Shown in pieces: positions 44,340 to 48,527 of a stretch of 48,527 nt of DNA (the stretch's first letter is position 1; each line of letters begins with the position of its first letter). Source of the DNA: Opitutaceae bacterium (lineage in GTDB: Bacteria > Verrucomicrobiota > Verrucomicrobiia > Opitutales > Opitutaceae); the NCBI GenBank assembly GCA_009919985.1, contig RGAX01000002.1, positions 1-48,527 on the forward strand, written 5' to 3'. The position numbers and the translations under genes are program-made. The notes under the pieces are model-generated. The model was not told where the DNA came from. It ran no database searches and was given only the letters and a program-made list of their open reading frames with translations.

Positions 44340-44933
44340 ATGCCTGATGAAGAACCGTCGTTCGACGTGGCTGGCTGCTTGGTGCGCGTACGTCAACGTG
44401 ATCAGGCCGCTGCGCGTGAGCTGGTCGATCATCTTTACCCGTTGGTTATCCGCATCGTGCGTTCCCACCTCCCGCGGCGCGTCGCCGAGGAAGACCTTGC
44501 GCAAGATATTTTTCTGAAAATGTTCACCCGGCTTGAGCAATATCAGGGTGCGGTGCCGCTCACGCACTGGGTTTCACGGATCGCTGTGACGACCTGCATC
44601 GACCAACTCCGCGCGCAGAAACGCCGCCCGGAGTTTCGTTGGGCGGATCTTTCTGAAAATCAGTCCGATGTGCTCGATGCGGTGATGACCAGCGAGAACG
44701 ACGTCGCCGCCAACGACGCGCTCGCCGCGCACGAGCTCGTGCATAAACTCCTCGATCAACTCAAACCCGACGACCGCATGGTGATTCAATTGTTGGATAT
44801 GGAGCAGAAAACCATCGCCGAGATCTGCAACCTCACGGGCTGGAATACGTCTCTGGTCAAAGTGCGGGCCTTTCGGGCGCGCCGAAAATTACGAAAACTT
44901 TTTTTAGATCTGCAAAACAGGGAACACGCATGA
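44340..44933 (+). CDS. RNA polymerase sigma factor, sigma-70/ECF family
   Basis: DQAAARELVDHLYPLVIRIVRSHLPRRVAEEDLAQDIFLKMFTRLEQYQGAVPLTHWVSRIAVTTCIDQLRAQKRRPE (region 2); DRMVIQLLDMEQKTIAEICNLTGWNTSLVKVRAFRARRKLRKLF (region 4). Confidence 0.93.
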   Translation: MPDEEPSFDVAGCLVRVRQRDQAAARELVDHLYPLVIRIVRSHLPRRVAEEDLAQDIFLKMFTRLEQYQGAVPLTHWVSRIAVTTCIDQLRAQKRRPEFRWADLSENQSDVLDAVMTSENDVAANDALAAHELVHKLLDQLKPDDRMVIQLLDMEQKTIAEICNLTGWNTSLVKVRAFRARRKLRKLFLDLQNREHA

Positions 44934-45238: not shown

Positions 45239-45730
45239 ATGAATAAAACCTGGAAAGTTGTACTCGCGTTTACCGCCGTATTTTTGGCGGGCGCTATTTT
45301 TGGTGGTTTGCTGGCGATGCGGGCGGGCCCGCGGTTGGCGCAACGCCGTGGTGCACCCGCGCTGCCTGCGATGCCGCCGGCTGTGTTGCGACACATGGCT
45401 GATCGACTCGAGCTCACGAACGAGCAGAAGGAAAAAATCCGTCCGTTGGTGGATCGCGCTGAGGAGGAAATCCGTCAGTTGCGGCAGGTTTCTATCAAGG
45501 AAACCGGCCTGATTCTCCGCCGGCTCCAACAGACGCTCGCCGTCGAGCTCAACCCGGACCAGCGCAAGAAACTCGAAAAAATGCAGGAGCGTCAGCGCGA
45601 GTTGATGCGTGAAGAGCGCCCAGGTCTACCCCCTCCGCGCGATCGCAAGGGTGGTAAACGTGATGGCGCGACCCCGCCACCGAGGCCTTTGACGCCGGCG
45701 CCTGCGGCCGCCGAACCGTTGAATCCCTGA
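45239..45730 (+). CDS. Spy/CpxP-like (periplasmic heavy-metal-sensor-like) one-TM protein
   Basis: N-terminal TM, then LELTNEQKEKIRPLVDRAEEEIRQLRQVSIKETGLILRRLQQTLAVELNPDQRKKLEKMQERQRELM; Pro/Arg-rich C-terminus. Confidence 0.7.
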   Translation: MNKTWKVVLAFTAVFLAGAIFGGLLAMRAGPRLAQRRGAPALPAMPPAVLRHMADRLELTNEQKEKIRPLVDRAEEEIRQLRQVSIKETGLILRRLQQTLAVELNPDQRKKLEKMQERQRELMREERPGLPPPRDRKGGKRDGATPPPRPLTPAPAAAEPLNP

Positions 45731-45810: not shown

Positions 45811-45906
45811 GGCCAGGTGCCATGCATGGGCAGGCGCGTGAACCCCGCCAGGGCCGGAAGGCAGCAACGGTAACGTCGTCCTCCTAGTGCCGTGGAGTGC
45901 CTGGCC
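45811..45906 (+). ncRNA. ffs: Bacterial small SRP RNA (4.5S RNA)
   Basis: Domain IV core CAGGGCCGGAAGGCAGCAACGG; 5' GGCCAGGTGC pairs with 3' GTGCCTGGCC; followed by U-rich ACTTTATTTTTG; directly upstream of dnaX. Confidence 0.93.
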
Positions 45907-45951
45907 ACTTTATTTTTGATTTCCTCTTCTGATTCCTGAACTTTTGCGCCT

Positions 45952-47112
45952 TTGAGTACAACCGGCTACCAAGTCATCGCCCGTAAATGGCGTCCGCAAA
46001 TCTTTGCCGACGTCGTGGGGCAGGATCATGTCGTGCGGACGTTGAAAAACGCTATCGCTCGCAATCGCATTGCTCACGCGTACTTGTTTGTGGGCCCGCG
46101 CGGCACCGGCAAAACCTCAACGGCACGTATTTTTGCCAAGGCCCTGAATTGTACCGGCGGCCCCAACGCCGATTTCGATCCTGCGGATCCGGCCGTGCAA
46201 TCCATCGCGGATGGCTCGCATCTGGACGTCATCGAGATCGACGGAGCGTCCAATAACGGCGTCGAGCAAGTGCGCGATTTGCGCGAGACAGCGCGCTATT
46301 CGCCGGCACAGGGTAAATTTAAAGTCTATATTATAGACGAGGTGCACATGCTTTCGACGGCAGCGTTTAACGCGCTGCTCAAAACCCTCGAAGAACCACC
46401 CCCGCACGTGAAGTTCGTCTTCGCCACGACGGAGGTGCAAAAGGTGCTGCCGACGATCTTGTCACGCTGCCAACGTTTTGACCTAAAGCCGATTCCGGCC
46501 CCGCTCATCATCGAGCGTCTCCAGAAAATTGCGGTCGCGGAAAAGATCAAAGTTTCCCCCGAGGCGCTCGCCTGCATCGCTCGCATGGCGGACGGCGGCA
46601 TGCGCGATGCCCAGTCGATTTTTGATCAGATGATTTCGTTTTGCGGGACCGAGATCGCCGAGCCGGATGTGCTCGATGTGTACGGTCTCGTCGCAGCCGA
46701 AAAAATCGCCGAACTCGCCGCCACCCTAGCCACCGGTGATCACTCACGCCTCGTCGCCCTCGTGGACGAATGCGACTCAGCGGGCCGCGACTTAGTCAGG
46801 TTGCTCACGGATTTGCAGGAAGTGGTCCGATCGGCATTACTTGATGCGATCGCGCAAGGTGGCCGTAGCAGCAGCCTCGGCGGGGTTGCCATGACGACGG
46901 AGCAGATCACGCGCTTGCTCGACGGTCTGCGTGAAGGCGAAGGCAGCGTGAAGCTCGGGTTGGCCGAGAAAATTAATTTTGAAGTGACGTTGTTGAAGGC
47001 GATCGAAGCGAGCCGCGCGCGCGCGATTGATAGCCTCATCAAAGAGCTCGCGGCGCTGGCCGATGAAGCCCCGGAGCCGGCGGCCGCCGACAGCGAAAAA
47101 AAAAAGGACTGA
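45952..47112 (+). CDS. dnaX: DNA polymerase III subunit gamma (0-frame product of dnaX), TTG start
   Basis: [114 protein letters not shown]. Ends SEKKKD-stop just after an A10 tract. Confidence 0.96.
47096..47106 (+). promoter_or_regulatory. dnaX: Recoding site: A10G tract with in-frame A AAA AAG slippery heptamer
   Basis: 0-frame codons GAA AAA AAA AAG GAC TGA at 47095-47112; run of ten A at 47096-47105. Confidence 0.75.
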
Positions 47113-47564
47113 TTGAGCGGTTGGAGCGGCGCCTGAGCACGGCCTTGGCTGCGTCGGCACAGTCGAGCGTTGTGGCGCGAATCAGCTCAATCGAGGCGAC
47201 GAACCGCGTGGAGTCTTTGCCGCCGGAGGCGAGCGATGCGGTTGGTGTGGCGCCATTGAGTGCGGCGGCGGTGGCGGCAGCCAGTGCTTCGGCGCATGGG
47301 ACTTTGTTTGGCGATGATGCGCCGTGGCCGACCGATGAAGCGGGCGAGACTACGTTTCTGGCTGAGACGCGCGAACGCGGTGAAACGGTCGCGGTGAAGC
47401 CAGCGGCTGCGCGCGAAGAGACGGCAGCGGAAACCGGACCTTTGCCTGCACTGGATGCGATGGTGCAACGCATCCCCGCCGAAGTACGCGAGGTCTTGGA
47501 GGAACTTTATCGGGCGAAATTCACGGCGGTGCGACGGGTGTCGGCGAAGTTTTTAAAGCAATAA
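47106..47564 (+). CDS. dnaX: -1-frame continuation of dnaX, predicted tau-specific C-terminal extension
   Basis: From 47106 the -1 frame reads [36 protein letters not shown]...[40 protein letters not shown]-stop, open through the A10 tract. Track ORF 47121..47564 is its TTG-started part. Confidence 0.75.
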
Positions 47565-47610: not shown

Positions 47611-48000
47611 TCAGATGGGCCACGTGGCGCCGAGGTGAGGGCGGCCAGATAAGTCGCGCAGATAAAAATACGTTTCAGCGGATGAAATCGCGGGCGATGC
47701 GGCGACTTGGTTGCGGGCGATTGGGTGGATGAGTGCAATCGGAGCGCGGCGGTACAGTCCTTCGGTTAGACCCTCGAGTACGTCGAGTCGCGCAAGACAG
47801 GCTGGGTCAACCGACCAGAGTTCGCCGGTGACGCCGTGGTCGTCGGTCGGCGCTGCGACCAGTCCGGGATATGCGCCGAGAGAAAAAAGCGTGAAGCCCG
47901 GCGCGGTGTGGGCGGGTCCGTGGAAGGTTTGGGCGGCGAGGTGGTGGTGGTTTAAGCCGCCGCGTTTGAGGGTGCCGTAGACGAAGAGCGTCGTAGTCAT
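47611..48000 (-). CDS. Gamma-glutamylcyclotransferase-like (AIG2/GGCT fold) protein
   Basis: LFVYGTLKRGGLNHHHLAAQTFHGPAHTAPGFTLFSLGAYPGLV, VTGELWSVDPACLARLDVLEGLTEGLYRR. Confidence 0.88.
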   Translation of the reverse strand: MTTTLFVYGTLKRGGLNHHHLAAQTFHGPAHTAPGFTLFSLGAYPGLVAAPTDDHGVTGELWSVDPACLARLDVLEGLTEGLYRRAPIALIHPIARNQVAASPAISSAETYFYLRDLSGRPHLGATWPI

Positions 48001-48527
48001 CGCGGCGCTGGGGTGCGTATAGGATTTTTGGCGCGTGGCACCTCGGGCCCGGTTGGCGCGAGGAGTTCGAAGGTGAGGGCGGTGGTGTTGTCTTGGCCGG
48101 AATTTTCGCGGATAAGTTCCTCGATGTGGCGTTCCCAGAGGCCGTCGACGAGGCCATCGGAGCAGAGGACGAAGCGGTCGCCGGGGGTGAGAGCGACCGC
48201 GCCGAATTGGGGTTCGATGAATTGGTGGCCGGCGCCGAGGGCTTGGTGGAGGGCGTTGCGCATCGGGTGGGCGCGGGCTTCTCGTTCATTAATCTGACCT
48301 TGGCGGCGGAGGTAGCCTACGTGGGTGTGATCGTGGGTGAGTTGGGTGATGCCGCCGGACTGGGGTAAATAATATAATCGACTGTCCCCGATGTGGCCGA
48401 AGTAGAGCCAGCCGGGCGTGAGCCAGCCGAGGGTGAGGGTGGTGCCCATGCCACGGCATTCTTCGTAGCTGTAGCCAAATTTGAGGAGCTCGTAGTGGAT
48501 GGCGTGGAAGACTTCCAGGAGGATGTC
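47997..48527 (-). CDS. PP2C-family serine/threonine protein phosphatase, N-terminally truncated by the window edge
   Basis: Reading frame open to the window end (DILLEVFHAIHYELLKFGYSYEECRGMGTTLTLGWLTPGWLYFGHIGDSRLYYL...LTHDHTHVGYLRRQGQI...GDRFVLCSDGLVDGL); motifs GMGTTL, GDSR, LCSDGL. Track ORF start 48449 is internal. Confidence 0.9.
   Translation of the reverse strand, partial: DILLEVFHAIHYELLKFGYSYEECRGMGTTLTLGWLTPGWLYFGHIGDSRLYYLPQSGGITQLTHDHTHVGYLRRQGQINEREARAHPMRNALHQALGAGHQFIEPQFGAVALTPGDRFVLCSDGLVDGLWERHIEELIRENSGQDNTTALTFELLAPTGPEVPRAKNPIRTPAPR

Follow-up and report, generated by a model that had tools for sequence, protein, structure and literature searches.

Programmed -1 ribosomal frameshifting uses an in-phase heptamer, proceeds in a fixed direction and is usually helped by stimulators; what happens in the third frame is irrelevant to it. 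The dnaX gene of Escherichia coli belongs to this type, with a shift that makes gamma and with upstream Shine-Dalgarno (SD)-like and downstream stem-loop stimulators. For other dnaX genes, slippage of RNA polymerase has been put forward. Slippage on an A9 run is described for Thermus thermophilus (Larsen et al. 2000, as cited in PMC1088944 and PMC5009743), where the presence of both Lys tRNAs is said to point to slippage and not to shifting on A_AAA_AAG (PMC5009743). It was also proposed for two-ORF dnaX genes, mostly with an A10 run, in which recoding is needed for tau: the GeneTack dnaX cluster of Antonov et al. (2013, PMC3711429) holds 17 such genes from 12 genera, the main text names Chlorobi members, and a 2016 review (PMC5009743) repeats the case. 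PMC3711429 also treats a change in shift direction between orthologues as a criterion for slippage.

The window analysed here, a stretch of 48,527 nucleotides from an Opitutaceae draft genome, carries a dnaX gene of the two-ORF kind (Table 1). The protein read in the 0 frame is a clamp-loader ATPase of the AAA+ class that includes the lid and domain III (Pfam PF13177/PF22608/PF12169; NCBIfam PRK05563 and TIGR02397 dnaX), and thus has domains I-III of DnaX. The junction codons, GAA AAA AAA AAG GAC TGA, are in frame with the TTG at 45952. An earlier note on this DNA had described the A10 tract followed two codons later by a 0-frame stop, the 152-codon -1 extension and the in-register A AAA AAG heptamer, all of which we confirmed in the sequence. 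The predicted sizes of 386 residues for gamma and about 537 for tau were reproduced with simulated transcripts: under standard decoding A10 as written gives 386 amino acids, A11 a 537-residue fusion and A8 one of 536, whereas A9, A12 and A13 give 387, 388 and 387. Thus, the long form comes from one residue class of tract lengths only. The tau tail, with a conserved segment at its end, lies in the -1 frame, which bears out the view that the logic is reversed relative to E. coli and that a shift is needed for the long form.

Table 1. Features of the dnaX locus in the window.
Feature	Position	Strand	Basis or remark
ffs, bacterial small SRP RNA	45811..45909	+	Rfam RF00169, 63.9 bits; directly upstream of dnaX, context only
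dnaX 0-frame ORF, gamma form, 386 aa, TTG start	45952..47112	+	Pfam and NCBIfam matches
Putative A10 slippage tract	47096..47105	+	Read from sequence; A9-A10 in 107/109 and A11/A12 in 2/109 family genes
A_AAA_AAG heptamer, in phase	47100-47106	+	Overlaps 3' end of A10 tract
TGA, 0-frame stop terminating gamma	47110..47112	+	Read from sequence
TGA in third (+1) frame	47114..47116	+	Formed by tau Ile ATT and Glu GAG; closes A9/A12-type transcripts
-1 extension, tau-specific C-terminal part, 152 codons and TAA (47562-47564)	47106..47564	+	Shared tail profile; dN/dS

A pattern search of the 2.99-Mb draft genome found no other run of ten or more A on either strand; apart from it, A9 words occur as eleven single runs. 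One of these (L299, G000:C5 near 6993), in the context KAEQKKILEAA, lies inside an ORF of about 970 codons whose product resembles Mfd, the transcription-repair coupling factor, in its sequence. Upstream of the SRP RNA and dnaX are an ECF-type sigma factor gene (44340-44933, +) and, further on, a gene for a small LTXXQ-motif protein (45239-45730, +). Convergent to dnaX are a gamma-glutamyl cyclotransferase-like (GGACT) gene (47611-48000, -) and, extending past the window edge, a PP2C phosphatase gene (47997-48527, -).

All 150 genomes of the family Opitutaceae that we searched had a DnaX-like match. From these, 110 dnaX genes were extracted, and 109 are readable at the site, the contig of the remaining one ending before it. 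The earlier note had proposed examining relatives for conservation of the tract and the -1 frame, and both are conserved in 107 of the 109: the run is A10 in 90 and A9 in 17, a 0-frame stop is near and the -1 frame is open for 100-230 codons. The stop follows directly after the run in all of these except one, in which it comes ten codons later. The two other genes have A11 and A12 and a single continuous frame. Among mono-shuffled copies of the sequence, about 1% contain an open frame of 152 codons; since the layout is common to 107/109 family genes, a chance open frame is removed from consideration. In comparison with its closest relatives, the -1 extension shows 12/7/43 and 9/9/53 changes at codon positions 1/2/3 of the -1 frame, with dN/dS of 0.12-0.23. 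It evolves as a protein under purifying selection. A 0-frame stop at a poly-A run with the tau tail in the -1 frame, the hallmark of recoding-dependent two-ORF dnaX, is present here.

Slippage predicts that both non-tau frames should be closed, and the third frame after the tract ends within a median of 2 codons. Compared with the background further down the same gene, this stop is nearer in 42/44 family genera (p=6e-11) and in 22/25 other genera of the order. In the window, as in Thermus, stops lie near in both non-tau frames. The stop appears to be written with particular synonymous codons. At a Leu-Ile junction the Ile is ATT, which makes ATTGA, in 58/73 family genes, compared with 20% elsewhere in these genes. 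With an ATC Ile, the Leu three codons later is encoded by CTT, which makes CTTGA, in 11/13 cases versus 4/58 with Ile ATT, the background for CTT being 7%. This compensation is significant by Fisher test at p=4e-8 by sequence and 0.009 by genus, shared ancestry weakening p-values at the sequence level. The dnaX genes of the order that consist of one ORF show less pronounced closure of the two frames (mean quantile 0.40, 14/19 genera). The codon pattern indicates that the third-frame stop is kept under selection through compensating Ile-ATT/Leu-CTT choice.

The strongest mechanistic clue is the variability of the frame within the order. With 79 loci added from other families of the order, the set comprised 189 dnaX genes, and a run of at least nine A was found in 181 of them, at about residue 365-393. 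Together with the uniqueness of the A10 in the window genome, this amounts to a homopolymer of at least 8-9 A/T kept beyond codon need, as in known slippage genes. The tau frame was assigned by tail homology, using a profile that recognises the tail whichever frame it occupies; the longest open frame is misleading for L226 and L265. The tail lies in the -1 frame in families f1, f3, f4, f11, f21, f26 and most of f24, in the +1 frame in f16, most of f8 and f22 and part of f19 and f20, and in the 0 frame in f2, f5, f9, f10, f12, f14, f15, f18, f23 and parts of f19 and f20. Shift direction is thus unconserved among orthologues, another feature of slippage genes. On a quickly built gamma-domain DnaX tree with some long branches, the three states cannot be explained with fewer than 16 switches in genes that have the tract, and at least 21 changes are needed when tract absence is counted as a fourth state.

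Switches are also seen between close relatives. The genes L103 and L107, with about 97% gamma-domain identity, differ by a net gain of one base at the tract, which takes the tail from the -1 to the 0 frame. One A separates L133 (A10, +1) from L128 (A11, -1) at about 94% gamma-domain identity, and L226 (A9, 0) from L235 (A10, +1) at about 90%. Order members without a nine-A run include L123, L236, L238 and L274-L277. The continuous dnaX of L238 (f8) stands beside run-bearing relatives, which is likely due to loss of the run.

We propose that RNA polymerase slips on the A tract and that dnaX would thereby encode two clamp-loader subunits. Faithful A10 transcripts, and A13 transcripts as well, would yield gamma, ending two codons past the tract; A9 and A12 transcripts would stop in the third frame, giving a gamma that is almost the same; transcripts that have gained one A (A11) or lost two (A8) would connect to the 152-codon part and yield tau of 537 or 536 residues. 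With transcripts of every frame arising by slippage, it would matter little which frame the DNA carries: the tract and its two near stops would be selected, and the template frame would be left to drift. We consider it very likely, judging from sequence comparison, that dnaX of the window holds an RNA-polymerase slippage tract that yields gamma and tau. The broader proposal for the order, that dnaX is indifferent to frame, also seems likely, if held with less assurance. Slippage at a kept A-run would make both forms whatever the template frame, single-base changes of the run would be tolerated, the frame would flip between -1, +1 and 0, and selection would keep the run and a stop for each non-tau frame. 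From these comparisons we infer slippage in vivo, the production of both products and their ratio. A point against slippage is the report that, in E. coli, RNA polymerase is less prone to slip on runs of A than on runs of T (PMC6260861).

The alternative that fares best, although we regard it as unlikely, is a programmed -1 ribosomal frameshift at A_AAA_AAG, on the model of E. coli dnaX but with gamma and tau trading roles. The window has the heptamer in phase, as do 89/107 of the -1-type family genes, and some such shifting is possible in the window species; a reversed layout with E. coli-like stimulators has been mentioned for Chlorobium phaeobacteroides (PMC5009743). However, no in-phase heptamer is present in 18/107 of the -1-type genes of the family and in 15/26 of those outside it; the base 3' of the tract is G, C or T; and the A run, which exceeds what the heptamer needs, is the conserved item. 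The earlier note had seen neither an SD stimulator nor a strong 3' stem, and wider comparison agrees with it: the window 3' stem has z=+1.2, RNAalifold found no consensus 3' structure across 44 family genera, and SD-like words are not enriched (26/109 at the site versus 71/109 at a control position). Pointing the other way, locally strong 3' stems (z below -2) occur in 16% of family genera versus 0% at the control position, and stricter SD pentamers at 5 sites versus 0. The E. coli pair of stimulators is not seen. Both tRNA-Lys(CTT) and tRNA-Lys(TTT) are present in several near-complete relatives, from which the inventory was taken as the window genome is an incomplete draft, and this too speaks against -1 shifting. 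So do the switches of order members to the +1 and 0 frames and the selected third-frame stop. Because the nucleotide that follows the run is variable, no 3' stem is conserved, the third frame is also closed and the frame switches, we favor slippage over ribosomal -1 frameshifting, and the lean of the earlier note towards transcriptional slippage is supported by sequence comparison as the better mechanism.

Sliding of the ribosome on the poly-A run, at the level of translation and with no restriction of direction, would also account for frame switching and for closure of both other frames, and E. coli work has described such sliding (PMC4363877). In that work A11 is robust and A9 or A10 give little product, whereas A9 and A10 greatly outnumber all other lengths here; we find this explanation improbable. 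Even less credit can be given to a scheme in which gamma and the tau tail are distinct proteins, the tail having its own initiation through translational coupling at the stop. The -1 frame does contain a TTG, at 47121, but the consensus across family genera has no conserved start codon or Shine-Dalgarno sequence at the junction, and the tail is fused to gamma in the A11/A12 and 0-type relatives. Finally, although the window genome is a draft in 444 contigs and 86% complete, an error of sequencing or assembly, or decay of dnaX, can be practically dismissed, as the -1 tail is under purifying selection and the tract is present in all 4 additional genes of the genus that extend to the site, in the isolate genome of Cephaloticoccus primus (L144) and in family members assembled in 1-2 contigs; the unshifted relatives lacking a homopolymer that the earlier note had named as contrary evidence did not turn up among these.

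Sister orders sampled in the class have no A run and a continuous dnaX. When a profile of the Opitutaceae C-terminus was compared with that of the continuous DnaX of these orders, a weak match of 19 columns appeared at the corresponding C-terminal position (P 0.012); given its weakness, we do not claim that the two are one domain. Elsewhere in the phylum, L327, L328 and L329 (family f66) and L341 have a two-ORF A10 dnaX with -1 frames open for 175-337 codons. The two-ORF layout has thus arisen or persisted more than once. In the same phylum, L324, L333, L340, L342 and L345 have a continuous dnaX with A9-A10.

Thermus-like dnaX genes, with an A9-A11 run, tau in the 0 frame and stops in both other frames, were seen in L172, L175, L181, L187, L204, L207, L211, L214 and L217. 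By record name, these include Pyrinomonadaceae (L204, L214, L217), Omnitrophota (L181), Planctomycetota (L207, L211) and Lentisphaerae (L172, L187); in these named cases the run is A9-A10 and lies near residue 400-415, and the other frames are closed within 0-10 codons. In Geobacter-type genomes (L186, L198, L209), an A9 run is found near the 3' end of dnaX (residue ~533-545), with other-frame stops 1 and 9 codons off; slippage at this run would shorten tau by its final ~40 residues.

In Opitutales, a large group, long-term selection apparently maintains both DnaX products, a point relevant to the question of whether the short gamma form is of consequence. The combination of an A-run, stops in both other frames written with uncommon synonymous codons, and frame switching between relatives provides a sequence signature that separates slippage from ribosomal -1 frameshifting ahead of any experiment. 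Automated annotation that ignores recoding would call dnaX truncated in these genomes. In a search of open-licence papers, excluding supplements, we found no earlier report of order-wide frame switching, of the +1 layout or of the two-stop compensating codon signature.

The two-ORF A10 architecture itself is already known from 12 genera (PMC3711429), to which the window dnaX adds. Like the genes of that cluster, as its main text describes them, it has two adjacent ORFs, a -1 shift at the DNA level, the A10 run that most of them carry, and a need of recoding for tau; compared with that description, the trait in Opitutales is order-wide and frame-variable and has selected third-frame stops. In slippage-decoded IS transposases and Shigella mxiE, as presented in the relevant passages of PMC1088944 and PMC3711429, the long product likewise needs slippage, and in the IS transposases shift direction is likewise unconserved between orthologues; however, these are mobile-element or regulator genes, whereas dnaX is a core replication gene. 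With E. coli dnaX the window gene shares the gene, the two products and the in-phase A_AAA_AAG, but none of the stimulators is conserved in Opitutaceae. With Thermus dnaX, as summarized in the two papers that cite the original work, it shares an A-run at the gamma/tau boundary and near stops in both non-tau frames. In Thermus, however, tau is the 0-frame product and slippage leads to gamma, whereas in the window gamma is the 0-frame product; the Thermus layout, so described, is found in several relatives within the order.
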